From: an uncultured Bacteroidales bacterium
GTDB taxonomy: Bacteria > Bacteroidota > Bacteroidia > Bacteroidales > Muribaculaceae
DNA: 54,173 bases
Reading direction: 5' to 3'
NCBI GenBank assembly: GCA_947175535.1
Contig: CAMWNF010000005.1
Coordinates: 1 to 54,173 of the forward strand
The notes beneath the pieces are model-generated. The model had not been told where the DNA came from and made no database searches. It worked only from the letters and a program-made list of their open reading frames with translations. How positions within the stretch are numbered: position 1 is the first letter of the stretch; every line of letters starts with the position of its first letter. Made by a program: the position numbers and the translations under genes. Shown here piece after piece: positions 37,610 through 41,996 of the stretch.

Positions 37610-38149
37610 ATGATTAAAGAAATACTTGAACATAATCGTCGCTTCGTAGAAGAGAAAGGCTACGAGCGTTTCCGCACTGATAAATATCCCAACAAGAAAA
37701 TTGCGATTGTGACCTGCATGGACACGCGTCTTGTCGAACTGCTCCCTGCCGCACTCGGCTTCCGCAATGGCGACGTGAAAGTCATCAAAAACGCCGGCGC
37801 AACGATTACCAATCCCTTTGACAGCACGATGCGTAGCCTGCTTGTCGCTGTCTATGAGCTTGGCGTAGAGGAAATAATGGTTATAGGTCATACGGGCTGC
37901 GGCGTCCAGGGCATGGACAGCGCAGAGATGCAACATCTTATGAAAGAACGCGGTATTCCCGAAAGCAATATCAACCTGATGAAGCACTGTGGCATCGACC
38001 TTGACAGCTGGCTTCACGGATTCGACGACACCGACGAAGCAATCCGCGAAACTGTCGACCTCATCCGAAACCATCCCCTTATGACCCACGACATCACCGT
38101 CAAAGGCTACATAATGGACTCCGAAACCGGTACCCTCCGCCCCCTTTGA
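37610..38149 (+). CDS. Beta-carbonic anhydrase
   Basis: A 179-residue beta-class carbonic anhydrase that interconverts CO2 and bicarbonate in the cytoplasm. Zinc ligands are visible: Cys in VTCMDTR, whose Asp-Arg pair is the catalytic dyad, and His and Cys in VIGHTGCG. NAGATITNPFDSTMRSLLVAVYELG is a conserved core. Length fits the small prokaryotic forms. It is the last gene of the operon. The final 35 bp of similarity (38094-38128) recurs at 39474-39508 downstream of the acyltransferase gene, indicating a partial duplication of its 3' end. Confidence 0.93.
   Translation: MIKEILEHNRRFVEEKGYERFRTDKYPNKKIAIVTCMDTRLVELLPAALGFRNGDVKVIKNAGATITNPFDSTMRSLLVAVYELGVEEIMVIGHTGCGVQGMDSAEMQHLMKERGIPESNINLMKHCGIDLDSWLHGFDDTDEAIRETVDLIRNHPLMTHDITVKGYIMDSETGTLRPL
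38094..38128 (+). repeat. 35-bp repeat, copy 1 (3' end of carbonic anhydrase gene)
   Basis: TCACCGTCAAAGGCTACATAA... matches 39474-39508 at 32 of 35 positions by eye and encodes TVKGYIMDSET in the carbonic anhydrase. Confidence 0.8.
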
Positions 38150-38170
38150 AAGGATCAAAACCGTTTTCAC

Positions 38171-38202
38171 TTGGCTGATAATGGCGAGTTGTTTATCTTT
38201 GC
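38171..38202 (+). promoter_or_regulatory. Promoter of the acyltransferase gene, near-leaderless
   Basis: TTG (38171-38173), a 20-nt spacer, then TATCTTTGC (38194-38202). The ATG at 38209 lies 6 nt after the box, so the transcript should start within a few nucleotides of the start codon. Confidence 0.7.
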
Positions 38203-38208
38203 ATTGAT

Positions 38209-39381
38209 ATGTCTACAACAACGTTCAATCCTATAGCAGAGAGCGGCAGGGCAGCCCGTCGGGAGGGATGGGTCGACGCTCTCCGCATTGTCGCTTGTGC
38301 GATGGTCGTACTCAGCCATTGCTGCGACCATTTCACGGCTGCATTTGACTCGAATTACTCGTTTTTCCTCACAGGCACGGCTATCGGCAGCATTGTTCGC
38401 CCTTGTGTGCCGTTGTTCGTGATGATGTCAGGTGTGCTTCTGCTCCCAATCAATAATAATGTAAGCCTGAGCGGATTTTACAAGAAAAGAGTGTCGCGCG
38501 TTTTGATTGCGCTGATTTTCTGGTCTCTGCTGCTACCTGTAGCTTGCTACTTCTACTTTAATTCTGTCGGCGGAAGCTCGGTCAACCCAGCGGTCGACCT
38601 TACGGCTTACACTCGGTCAGGATTAGTCAATCGCCTGTGGAGCTGGATATTCAACTTTAACTATGATACAACTCCGCTGTGGTATCTTTATATGCTGCTC
38701 GGTCTATATTTAGCCATGCCGATTGTCAACGCATGGCTTGCCACTGCCAGCCGCAAAGATTTACGCGCAGTGCTGATTGTTTGGATTGCAACCCTTTTTA
38801 TTCCGATTATAAAAATCGTCGCTCCCCTTTGTGGCTATGCCGGTAATTACGGCAATCTCGATATATGGGGCGGCTGCGATTGGAATGTCTACGGCACGTT
38901 TTACTATATGTCGGGGTTTATGGGTTATATTCTACTCGCATATTACATGGTAAAATACCCGCTGTCGTGGAGCAACCGCAAACTGGCGGTCATCGGTAGC
39001 CTTATGTTTGCCGCAGGATTTGTATTGACTTTCGGCGGCTATGTATTGCTGCAGAAATATTTCCCCGGTAATTATTCATATCTGGAAATAGCGTGGTGGT
39101 TTACAGGTATCAACGTATTCATTATGACATGGCCGATATTCGAGTGGTTCAGACGTTCGTCAATCAGACCTCGAAAAGTGTTGACATATCTTGCCGGTCT
39201 GACGTTCGGCATATACCTTTGTCACTTTTTCTTTGTGATGGTGGGATATGACCTCTTTAACATTGCGTCGCTCCCCGCAGTTGTGAGGATTGCATTAAAC
39301 CTGATTTTCACTTTCAGTTGCGCCGCCATCCTCGCCGCTCTCCTAAAAAGCTGGAAAGTCACCCGGAAATTTGTGTCATAG
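38209..39381 (+). CDS. Acyltransferase family 3 integral membrane protein
   Basis: A 390-residue membrane protein of the acyltransferase 3 (OafA/OatA-like) family. The N-terminal helix carries WVDALRIVACAMVVLSHCCDH, with the conserved Arg and catalytic-type His of the first transmembrane segment, and RPCVPLFVMMSGVLLLPI is the next conserved block. About ten hydrophobic segments follow to the end. These proteins acetylate or succinylate sugars of surface polysaccharides, using acyl-CoA from the cytoplasm. It lacks the extra extracellular SGNH domain of OatA. It stands alone behind its own promoter; a role in modifying a glycan made by the upstream glycosyltransferase operon is possible but only positional. 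Confidence 0.9.
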   Translation: MSTTTFNPIAESGRAARREGWVDALRIVACAMVVLSHCCDHFTAAFDSNYSFFLTGTAIGSIVRPCVPLFVMMSGVLLLPINNNVSLSGFYKKRVSRVLIALIFWSLLLPVACYFYFNSVGGSSVNPAVDLTAYTRSGLVNRLWSWIFNFNYDTTPLWYLYMLLGLYLAMPIVNAWLATASRKDLRAVLIVWIATLFIPIIKIVAPLCGYAGNYGNLDIWGGCDWNVYGTFYYMSGFMGYILLAYYMVKYPLSWSNRKLAVIGSLMFAAGFVLTFGGYVLLQKYFPGNYSYLEIAWWFTGINVFIMTWPIFEWFRRSSIRPRKVLTYLAGLTFGIYLCHFFFVMVGYDLFNIASLPAVVRIALNLIFTFSCAAILAALLKSWKVTRKFVS

Positions 39382-39473
39382 CTCGAATAGGCTGATGACC
39401 GAAGTTGTTTTTTCTCGAAACTACGCGATTTTAACAATATTGCACGACGGCGTAGAGTCGCGTTATCAACGGC

Positions 39474-39508
39474 TCACCATCAACGGCTACATAATAGACT
39501 CCGAAACC
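39474..39508 (+). repeat. 35-bp repeat, copy 2 (remnant of a carbonic anhydrase 3' end)
   Basis: In one frame it reads LTINGYIIDSET, against TVKGYIMDSET at the end of the carbonic anhydrase at 37610-38149. Weaker similarity extends about 10 nt further upstream. It is an isolated remnant of a second copy. Confidence 0.75.
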
Positions 39509-39532
39509 TGCGCTCCCTGTAACAAAAGAGTA

Positions 39533-39553
39533 GGGGCGTACCCTGGTGCGCCC
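39533..39553. repeat. REP-like palindrome
   Basis: GGGGCGTACC and GGTGCGCCC form a 9-bp stem (one G-U pair) around CT. The form resembles short GC-rich palindromes repeated between genes in many bacterial genomes; only one copy lies in this window. Confidence 0.5.
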
Positions 39554-39583
39554 GAAACAAACAGTTGCCAATAGTTACAGACT

Positions 39584-39650
39584 CGGCTTTAGCCGGGTGT
39601 AAATGTAAGCCTATGGCAAATCTCGCGTAGCAGATGCAGCCATAGGATAC
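39584..39650. repeat. Second REP-like palindromic unit
   Basis: CGGCTTTAGCCG is a short palindrome. It is followed by CCTATGGC, an inner ATCT/AGAT pair and GCCATAGG, together forming a cruciform-like unit. No gene is visible here. Confidence 0.45.
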
Positions 39651-39737
39651 AATCCAACCCCAAAGCAAAGAGTTCCGCCAACTAAACGTGGCTTGTAATA
39701 TTCCTCTGATGCGGTTTATTCACGGCTATAAAGTTGA

Positions 39738-39777
39738 AATGCACTCCAAAAATTATACCCAATTTTTGGAGTGCATT
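39738..39777. terminator. Perfect 17-bp inverted repeat between convergent genes
   Basis: AATGCACTCCAAAAATT (39738-39754) pairs fully with AATTTTTGGAGTGCATT (39761-39777) around a 6-nt loop. It lies between the acyltransferase gene (+) and the coiled-coil protein gene (-) and can serve as a two-way terminator, though no long T-run flanks it. The length and perfection are unusual. Confidence 0.6.
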
Positions 39778-39855
39778 GTAGGAAAAATACATTTAATATT
39801 ATTGTAAATACTAAAGTATAATAAAAGGCTAACCTATTGTAAATAATATTGATAT

Positions 39856-40953
39856 TTATTGGATTCTATTAATTTCAGCTTGTATTTCAGATTCTGAAAA
39901 GAATGGTCTACATAGAAATGTTGTAAAACTATTTAAATTTGAGCTAAATACAGGAATTTTACTTCCCTTTTGTTTAATAGTGTCCCCTATGATACGTCTT
40001 CTATAATATAAATTACTTCCACTATAAACTTGAATTTCCCAGTTACCCAGTTCCTTTGACCGATTATAATTTGAACCTCTAACTGGGGATGCTCCCGGCA
40101 CAACGAAATATAGACCAGGAATGTCAAAATTTTTGAGTCTATTATTTGATATTGCTCGCAATATTGTTTCATCGGCCATCTCCCAACCGTATGGAATTGG
40201 ATTGGCTATAACTACTTTACCTTTAGCTGCGTCAAACTCAAATCGAAAATCATATACATCGTTTCTTATAATGTATCCAGCTACTTGAAACGTCGAAACA
40301 CCTAATTTATTCAATAGATTCTGGATTGCTTGGTTGCGTAACTGACTGCGTTTGAATTGCTCTCTTCTTTCAGCTTCCTCTCTAGCTGCCAGTTCTTCCC
40401 TTCTGGTCCGCTCGATTTGTTCTCTCTTTTCGCGCTCAATTCGTTCCTCTTCAGACTTTATCCTTGCCCTTTCTTCTTCTTTTGGTTTAATTATAAGACC
40501 TTCCGCAACTTTCTGCGAGAGTGAAACTAAATGATTCATATTCTGGACTGGAGATGAAGTATCAAAAGAATAAACTATTACTGCACTCTGAACGTCAATA
40601 AGGCGAGAAGACACGAATATTTCGTCGAGCAATTCGTTTGCATCTACCACCGCAACATATCTCACGCCAAATTGCTGTCCGATTTTGGCGATTTGACTGT
40701 CAGATACATTTCCAGAAACTTGGTAATCTTGTTCCGAGGAAATGGCATTGAGAAAATCATTAGTTCTTTCAATGGCAATGTAGTCTGGTGATGCAGCTAT
40801 CTCCGAAACCATTTTAGAGCCAATGACTTTTTTATATGCCTCATCGATATCGCCAATCATGTAAACAGCGAGTTTTTGTTTGAAATTATTATTTTGTCCA
40901 TCTACCGTCGTAAACGAAACAGCTAATAATAGCATGATGAATATTGTACGCAT
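39856..40953 (-). CDS. Secreted protein with CsgG/LpoB-like domain, coiled coil and C-terminal domain
   Basis: A 365-residue protein with a signal peptide (MRTIFIMLLLAVSFTTVDGQ). Residues about 25-150 (KLAVYMIGDIDE..., IAIERTNDFLNAISSEQDYQ, IGQQFGVRYVAVVD, SSRLIDVQSAVIVYSF) have the pattern of CsgG/LpoB/TolB-N-like envelope domains. A charged coiled coil follows (EEERARIKSEEERIEREKRE to about residue 210), then an unrecognised C-terminal domain containing RNDVYDFRFEFDAAKGKVVI. The first domain is clearly paralogous to the neighbouring 159-residue protein. Likely periplasmic or outer-membrane associated; function unknown. It lies 11 nt downstream of its paralogue, in the same transcript. Composition is AT-richer than the genes on either side of the island. 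Confidence 0.65.
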   Translation of the reverse strand: MRTIFIMLLLAVSFTTVDGQNNNFKQKLAVYMIGDIDEAYKKVIGSKMVSEIAASPDYIAIERTNDFLNAISSEQDYQVSGNVSDSQIAKIGQQFGVRYVAVVDANELLDEIFVSSRLIDVQSAVIVYSFDTSSPVQNMNHLVSLSQKVAEGLIIKPKEEERARIKSEEERIEREKREQIERTRREELAAREEAERREQFKRSQLRNQAIQNLLNKLGVSTFQVAGYIIRNDVYDFRFEFDAAKGKVVIANPIPYGWEMADETILRAISNNRLKNFDIPGLYFVVPGASPVRGSNYNRSKELGNWEIQVYSGSNLYYRRRIIGDTIKQKGSKIPVFSSNLNSFTTFLCRPFFSESEIQAEINRIQ

Positions 40954-40964
40954 ATACCAAAGAT

Positions 40965-41444
40965 TTATTTAGACTTATTATTAAGAAGACGATATGCGAG
41001 ATTATTTGCCATGGTGGATATAATCTCCGATCCAGTGTATTCCCGTTTGAGATTCACTGTTTTGAGAATCTCCCCGGATACCAAGTCGATCAACTTAGCA
41101 AACATATGGCATTGGTCGTCTGCGGATATTACGGTGTGGACTACAATGACATAATCAACACCTAAACGTTGTCCCACGGAACGAATTTCTTTTTCGGGAA
41201 GGTCTCCAGATGTCTGATAGTCTTGTTCTTTATCAAGAGCGTTGACAAATGACGAGTTTCTTTCAAATGCCTTGTAATCTTTATTCCCAGAAAGTCGTGC
41301 AAGGACCGATGAACAAACAATTGATTTGGTAGATTTGGAGATTTCGCCTTCTGCGTACACGGCAACCTTTTTAGCCGCCATAGCTTCACTTGCGAACATG
41401 GTACTAGTAACCATAATGAAAAGAAGTAAATATAACCTTTTCAT
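40965..41444 (-). CDS. Small secreted CsgG/LpoB-like protein (paralogue of the next gene)
   Basis: A 159-residue protein with a signal peptide (MKRLYLLLFIMVTSTMFASEAMA). It consists of one domain: KKVAVYAEGEIS, FERNSSFVNALDKEQDYQTSG, VGQRLGVDYVIVVH, AKLIDLVSGEILKTV. These blocks match the first domain of the downstream protein in order and spacing (KLAVYMIGDID, FLNAISSEQDYQ, IGQQFGVRYVAVVD, SRLIDVQSA). The fold is probably that of CsgG/LpoB envelope proteins, inferred from motif rhythm only. It is the first full gene behind leader copy 2. Confidence 0.65.
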   Translation of the reverse strand: MKRLYLLLFIMVTSTMFASEAMAAKKVAVYAEGEISKSTKSIVCSSVLARLSGNKDYKAFERNSSFVNALDKEQDYQTSGDLPEKEIRSVGQRLGVDYVIVVHTVISADDQCHMFAKLIDLVSGEILKTVNLKREYTGSEIISTMANNLAYRLLNNKSK

Positions 41445-41453
41445 AAATACATT

Positions 41454-41648
41454 TTATGCCTCTGGACTCTCCTCGTTGGCTTTAGATAAAAAAATAAGAG
41501 CGTGAGAGTCTGTATCTTCTACCCGTCCCACAAACTGAGGCTCTGGAATGCCTTTCAAGATGAAACGAGCAGTTAGAGCCTCACGCAGATATGTGAATAT
41601 AATATATCTCCTCGCGGAGATATGGGATATATCACAATCGAAAGGCAT
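41454..41648 (-). CDS. Small 64-residue ORF inside leader copy 2
   Basis: An open frame MPFDCDISHISARRYII...DTDSHALIFLSKANEESPEA ending 9 nt before the start of the 159-residue gene. No signal or membrane segment. The C-terminal part aligns with the decayed frame at 597-816 (DTDSYAFF, PNANER), which lies at the same place before another gene. It may be a real small protein or a translated leader peptide. An 8-bp hairpin with a GCGA loop (41604-41623) lies inside it. Confidence 0.45.
   Translation of the reverse strand: MPFDCDISHISARRYIIFTYLREALTARFILKGIPEPQFVGRVEDTDSHALIFLSKANEESPEA
41604..41623 (-). other. Hairpin inside the small ORF of leader copy 2
   Basis: ATATCTCC and GGAGATAT pair fully; on the minus strand the loop is GCGA, a GNRA-type tetraloop that would make the RNA hairpin stable. 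Confidence 0.55.
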
Positions 41649-41765
41649 CTATCACTGCAACATTTGACCTTGATAAGAAATTTTCCAGATTTCAGTTTGT
41701 CAAATGAGCGTCGATAAACGCTTCATAATAATTAGTATGTCTTTGTCAATCGTTTAATTGACGGT
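41649..41765 (-). promoter_or_regulatory. Upstream half of leader copy 2
   Basis: On the minus strand this leader starts near 41760 with a CAAT...ATTG hairpin and an AGCGT...ACGCT hairpin with a TTATCG loop (41708-41723). It then runs to the GATGCC that begins the small ORF. The order and several sequence blocks (AAGCGTTTATC, AAGGTCA-like and GATGCC) match leader copy 1 at 810-935. Confidence 0.5.
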
Positions 41766-41797
41766 GCTAATTTACGAAATATTATTAAATTAAACAA
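41766..41797 (-). promoter_or_regulatory. Promoter of leader copy 2
   Basis: On the minus strand TTG (41797-41795), a 20-nt spacer, then TAAATTAGC (41774-41766), one base off the -7 consensus. Confidence 0.5.
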
Positions 41798-41996
41798 TAA
41801 AACTGCGATTATTTAGATTTATTGCTATACACAGAACCCCAGATAGATTTGCATAAACCTCTGTGTGTTCATTCCACCTTTATCTACAATAATACATAGC
41901 AATGGCGTCAGAGCGTAAGGTTCAGACGTACATTCCTTTTTTCTGTTTCTGCGTGGTTTTATTCATCCGGAGACGGACGCAAAAATTGCCTTACTA
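41798..41996. other. Intergenic stretch downstream of nadB
   Basis: AT-rich sequence with a long-looped ACACAGA/TCTGTGT inverted repeat near 41828-41867 and a short TCCG-CGGA hairpin near 41970. No gene or clear terminator is seen. Confidence 0.4.

Follow-up and report, generated by a model that had tools for sequence, protein, structure and literature searches.

A widespread rod-like hairpin RNA of Bacteroidota that probably acts as a modular 5′ leader of accessory genes

The window analysed here is a 54,173-nt stretch of a contig from an uncultured Muribaculaceae bacterium, and it carries two related elements, copy 1 and copy 2, each upstream of a gene on the minus strand. Every feature of the copy 2 region (41445-41797) lies on the minus strand and is read from 41797 to 41445. 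The region starts with a promoter of the Bacteroidetes −33/−7 type (41766-41797), composed of TTG (41797-41795), a 20-nt spacer and TAAATTAGC (41774-41766), a −7 box that is a degenerate match to the TAnnTTTG consensus (quoted in PMC7366714). It is followed by two small hairpins, GTCAAT/ATTGAC (41762-41745), in a fast-evolving 5′ domain between promoter and core, and GCGT/ACGC (about 41720-41707). The core (41495-41726) is a rod-like hairpin RNA, with a score of 182.8 bits (E 5.1e-59) against R1, a covariance model built from 26 copies, and a minimum free energy (MFE) of −81.6 kcal/mol (z −6.25). Within it we distinguish a hypervariable 5-bp helix formed by N5 (AAACT, 41694-41698) and N5′ (AGTTT, 41532-41536), a CTGGAA strand (41683-41688) with its partner TTCCAG (41548-41543), and, at the variable tip of the rod, an apical 8-bp hairpin, ATATCTCC-GCGA-GGAGATAT (41604-41623), closed by a GNRA-type loop. 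Near the rod base, the 3′ arm bears a bulge, the E segment GACTCTC (41504-41510), which is the exact complement of the F segment GAGAGTC (41465-41471) located about 20 nt 5′ of the start codon. A terminator-like U tract (41488-41494) follows the CACGC arm, and a U-rich tail is also kept in A3 and A6.

Overlapping the core and the region after it, a 64-aa ORF with an ATG start runs from 41648 to 41454, its stop lying 9 nt before csg1, which starts at 41444. Promoter, both small hairpins, GNRA-type hairpin, open frame and 9-nt gap had all been described in the first-pass annotation of the locus, and all are present as described. The presumed regulated gene, csg1 (40965-41444), encodes a 159-aa secreted protein that is CsgG/LpoB-like by eye only; the next gene in the unit, csg2 (39856-40953), encodes a 365-aa paralogue and is found 3′ of csg1 in most homologue loci. 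In G001, the closest relative with the region assembled, prCA and nadB are 27 nt apart, and everything that separates them in the window (38150-41996; an acyltransferase gene, csg2, csg1 and the leader) is absent. A 35-nt segment from the 3′ end of the carbonic-anhydrase-like gene occurs twice, at 91% identity (38094-38128 and 39474-39508), the duplicate lying beyond the acyltransferase-like gene; it looks as though an insertion had recreated the gene tail.

Copy 1 consists of a −7 box, TAACTTTG (1030-1037), a core rod RNA (641-901; R1 185.5 bits, E 6.7e-60; MFE −107.9, z −6.95) and, with its start codon 53 nt after the core, a gene for a 146-aa P-loop-like protein (147-587), all on the minus strand. 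On the plus strand, an ORF divergent from copy 1 (1115-1504) resembles the start of a RhuM-type protein and seems to be cut short. The nucleotide blocks that had been reported as repeated between the two copies are real and far beyond chance (70% identity over 106 nt by blastn). As for the picture of a two-copy repeat, both copies exist but the genome holds at least 15.

Each copy of the family forms one rod-like hairpin of 165-260 nt, with single-sequence folding energies of −55 to −115 kcal/mol (z −5.3 to −9.2). At its base, 5′ AAAGCGU pairs with 3′ ACGCUUU, and the arms are paired along almost their whole length, apart from conserved interruptions, up to a variable tip. In the alignment of 26 copies the rod was 93.5% paired, and 30 of its 53 pairs had changed on both sides. 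Covariation across homologues, a check that had been proposed for this locus, gave two-sided pair changes far above controls: the long form contained 213 two-sided cells, against 73.7 ± 8.1 after shuffling (0/500) and 24-55 in slid controls. A first model made of local hairpins and pseudoknots was dropped, given that single-sequence folding yielded one rod and that the two-sided cells numbered 213 for the rod versus 19. Counts derived from a predicted structure may lean towards that structure; the short form was predicted separately from the long form, by de novo RNAalifold, and showed the same base, N5 helix, CTGG helix and apical hairpin; here both partners had changed in 20 of 36 pairs, giving 109 two-sided cells against 30.9 ± 4.6 in shuffled alignments (0/500). 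The CTGG helix showed two-sided switches between GC, CG and AU pairs. The N5 helix is almost unconstrained in sequence, yet its pairing is kept in 26/26 copies, and the nucleotides of the internal loops (GAAA..CTGG, ACC/GCC) are nearly invariant. These last nucleotides, together with the conserved E:F pairing, are left unexplained if the rod is a passive stabiliser or insulator of the mRNA, that is, a 5′-end-protecting structure or an RNase III processing site with no switch; such a role would fit the high stability of a rod placed 5′ in a unit that looks monocistronic, and we consider it unlikely.

Pairing was also strand-specific. On the sense strand, G·U cells exceeded A·C cells by 209 to 27 in the long form and by 75 to 3 in the short form, and the tolerance of G·U over A·C persisted (7:3 and 15:1) in structures predicted without G·U, in which the bias is removed. 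Furthermore, 82 of 92 family members had a TAnnTTTG box in the 160 nt preceding them, compared with 4/87, 4/86 and 6/90 control windows (about 5%) and 16/92 on the opposite strand. From the sense-strand G·U excess, the promoter and a 64-aa frame that is broken by indels, we conclude that the conserved object is the RNA and that copy 1 is not decaying. The first-pass annotation had left these as two options, the RNA as the conserved entity or copy 1 decaying after duplication: the former is strongly supported by the covariation, the strand-specific G·U excess and the conserved promoters, whereas the latter does not hold for a copy that is a full-scoring member of its own subtype, has exactly complementary N5 and N5′ strands, and precedes a gene that keeps such a leader in other genera.

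The 64-aa ORF itself is a chance reading of one pair of rod arms and not a gene. When these 353 nt were dinucleotide-shuffled, 5.3% of the shuffles contained a sense ORF of 64 codons or more (p = 0.053), so the ORF alone is no evidence of a gene. Conservation of its reading frame was not found across csg1 orthologues: in the leaders of G452, G425b and G116, whose csg1 proteins are about 80-82% identical, indels and stops destroy the frame, and the translated ORF had zero matches in Pfam and NCBIfam. If it nevertheless encoded a leader peptide or small protein, so that the nucleotide similarity followed from coding, this would agree with an ATG-started frame that stays open to within 9 nt of csg1 and with the similarity of part of the frame in several subtype-2 leaders. 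This partial likeness (LREALTARFILKGIPEP) reflects an echo of the conserved RNA arms, and the variation in the helices is two-sided, unlike a codon pattern; we regard translation as very improbable. Small ORFs annotated inside such leaders may be spurious.

The family is large and widely distributed. A DNA similarity search found related copies in 20 of 61 relatives. In the genome of the window, 14 strong R1 members were detected (E < 1e-28), and a second model, R2, built from a short form of about 165 nt, added three short-form copies (C90:6144, C81:198 and C7:2062). The genome holds 15-17 copies, the two in the window among them. The genomes compared are drafts and several tallies were made under strict filters. 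Within the same bacterial family, the Muribaculaceae, R1 matched 137 of the 149 sampled genomes and 28 of 30 genera, often with 5-13 copies each, and across the order it matched 49 of 198 genomes; the shorter form occurs in other families of the order. In a sample of the phylum, R2 matched at least 58 of 396 genomes, a lower bound obtained with strict filters. Among the matches listed for a DNA pattern were Flavobacterium, Chryseobacterium, Elizabethkingia, Maribacter, Mucilaginibacter, Bacteroides xylanisolvens XB1A and Parabacteroides, as well as a Muribaculaceae metagenome-assembled genome (MAG) and some Lentisphaerae and Ignavibacteriae MAGs. Phage records contained no match to the element, and plasmid records gave only four Bacteroidales matches with a Bacteroides-type query and none with a Chryseobacterium-type query. 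At E ≤ 1, Rfam 15 returned no match to the element in the window, the family, the flavobacterial loci or the named Bacteroides loci, while rteR, which serves as a positive control, and BTnc005 were detected in the same scan of the latter. A description of the motif was not found in the open-access literature, in which the PMC2864571 and PMC8040213 lists were searched by text only. The RNA family thus seems to be absent from Rfam and previously uncatalogued, a prior description outside Rfam being possible. Two further arrangements were observed among the copies. Locus L114 contains a tandem duplication of leader plus gene, with near-identical leaders (1250-1415 and 2375-2540) each before a related secreted protein. 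In genome G127, six leaders (L357-L362, on contigs C79, C56, C20, C104, C94 and C16) are broken at one base, CTCACG^TATTCTATGTTAATTTCC, by near-identical interrupting sequences, and all six contigs end within 36-47 nt, a pattern suggestive of an insertion element with the 3′ arm of the rod as its target.

The position of the rod relative to the next gene is constrained. In 89 distinct loci, the distance from the rod to the following start codon ranges over 23-252 nt and peaks sharply at 48-61 nt, so that an upstream promoter is combined with a co-directional start codon at a constrained distance; this spacing is looser in Flavobacteriia, where 190-600 nt often separate the rod from the next gene. 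Across the junction, the E bulge near the rod base is complementary to F, which precedes the start codon by about 20-30 nt. Over 77 loci, a set from which copy 2 is missing owing to the end-finding pattern (its own E and F are exactly complementary in sequence), the mean E:F pairing was 15.1, versus 12.6 ± 0.26 when F was exchanged between loci, a difference of about 10 s.d. Such spacing and complementarity, along with the retention of the leader by homologous genes described below, argue against a mainly trans-acting small RNA to which the downstream gene is incidental, and the hypervariable helices would leave such an RNA little common seed. A compact unit of promoter and U tract could well specify a small RNA, and the flavobacterial copies are often far from the next gene, but for the family as a whole we find this reading quite unlikely. 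For the Flavobacteriia in particular, the wide spacing makes an independent sRNA or another promoter possible.

The genes downstream are functionally diverse. In Bacteroidales they include BspA-like LRR proteins, DUF4595, VWA and DUF3575 proteins, outer-membrane barrels, a GIY-YIG protein, a PD-(D/E)XK protein, a DNA methylase, P-loop proteins and many orphans, and a crude test assigns a hydrophobic N-terminus to around half of the encoded proteins. Loci recovered with the pattern, mostly from Flavobacteriia, precede TonB-dependent receptors (11/45), sigma-70 factors and thioredoxin-like proteins, and in Bacteroides and Parabacteroides a dihydrofolate-reductase-family gene (RibD_C, 7/45) is found in elements with rteC, topB and rteR. 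PADLOC, run on 83 downstream proteins, gave isolated hits only and no enrichment of defence genes. Because of this diversity, the downstream genes suggest no ligand. Two recurrent layouts were seen. At the flavobacterial loci L214-L238 and L240-L318, a TonB-dependent receptor lies downstream of the leader and a small helix-turn-helix gene is very often divergent, some 90-175 nt upstream of it. In CTnDOT-like elements of Bacteroides and Parabacteroides there is a single leader (L274:1387-1552, L391:3014-3178 and L392:3014-3178), placed between a primase/helicase region on one side and the dihydrofolate-reductase-family gene on the other, with rteR just beyond.

Genes of the same family tend to keep the leader. 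At csg1 homologue loci within the bacterial family, an R1 leader was found upstream in 18 of 21 cases; the leaders end 50-68 nt before the gene (17 measured), and one more is partial, its contig ending within it. Of the three csg1 loci with no leader, two contain an in-frame stop. Homologues of the copy 1 gene have an R1 match upstream in 10 of 12 loci (one partial, one about 0.86 kb away), and one further locus runs into a contig end. The leader subtype, in turn, may differ before the same gene: G452 and G425 encode csg1 proteins that are 94% identical, while their leaders are 59% identical and belong to different subtypes. The distance to the start codon is nonetheless 53 and 57 nt, and homology breaks off near the 3′ end of the rod. 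Because one and the same gene can stand behind different subtypes, the leaders behave as interchangeable modules.

Such exchange also fits the main competing explanation, in which a mobile or recombining DNA element, either a palindromic MITE or an attC-like folded single strand, moves leader-gene cassettes and the transcript is secondary. It draws on the patchy multi-copy distribution (csg1 homologues, and with them the csg unit, occur in 17 of 247 genomes), on the csg region missing between its neighbour genes in the closest relative, and on the swapped subtypes with homology breakpoints at the core start or near the 3′ end. It would not account for the strand-specific G·U excess, a promoter conserved in 89% of members or the near-fixed distance to the start codon; copies are single rather than cassette-flanking and have no phage match, and phylum-wide two-sided changes at most of the variable rod positions are unexpected for decaying MITE copies. 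Integron attC sites do share with the rod a long imperfect hairpin, conserved unpaired bases, a variable tip and diverse adjoining accessory genes, but the rod RNA has sense-strand RNA features, a promoter and a near-fixed start-codon distance, its copies are mostly isolated, and by inspection its ends do not fit RYYYAAC...GTTRRRY. On balance a mobile DNA element as the whole explanation is unlikely, and both it and a cis-acting leader may be partly true. A combined version, in which the element is an RNA leader and at the same time the exchange site of accessory genes, forming a non-integron cassette system of Bacteroidota, strikes us as a long shot.

Other known RNAs resemble the element in part. 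TPP riboswitches are annotated in Bacteroides (PMC7366714), and like attenuators and riboswitch-type leaders the rod RNA is a 5′ leader with its own promoter, a U tract and competing pairings by the start codon; it differs from them in being one 165-260-nt rod rather than an aptamer with a small expression platform, in having no recognised ligand class or Rfam match, and in serving unrelated genes between which subtypes are swapped. The rteR sRNA (RF04181) of CTnDOT-type conjugative transposons lies a few hundred nt from the rod RNA in the same elements of Bacteroides and Parabacteroides, but its position, strand and sequence differ, and Rfam finds rteR and misses the rod RNA there. Finally, 6S RNA, 6S-Flavo (RF01685) and Flavo-1 (RF01705) are likewise rod-like or Bacteroidetes-wide RNAs, whereas the element described here has no Rfam match at E ≤ 1 and occurs as many gene-fused copies per genome.

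The computed features point to a function as a cis leader, which we consider likely, and the element is probably a modular cis-acting 5′ leader RNA that gates accessory, surface, uptake and mobile-element genes. The leader would be transcribed from its own promoter and form a single long rod-like hairpin with a U-rich tract at its end; it would be fused to the gene served, whose start codon follows at a near-fixed distance (about 50-60 nt in Bacteroidales). How gating might work is more tentative, with somewhat less than an even chance for the specific scheme we favour: the rod base and U tract could stop transcription, and/or the E bulge could pair with F and so mask or expose the start region, with a protein or ligand that reads the conserved internal loops shifting the balance.

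This RNA is present in most genomes of its own Bacteroidales family, often in 5-15 copies, and in scattered genomes of Flavobacterium, Chryseobacterium, Bacteroides, Parabacteroides and Mucilaginibacter. If the cassette reading were true, new genes would be set down after regulatory RNA modules that are already in place and ready for use, and would thereby enter a common regulon. If the leader controls expression, the surface, nutrient-uptake, restriction-related and conjugative-transposon genes behind it would make up a large uncharacterised regulon, whose signal would be directly testable in cultivable strains.
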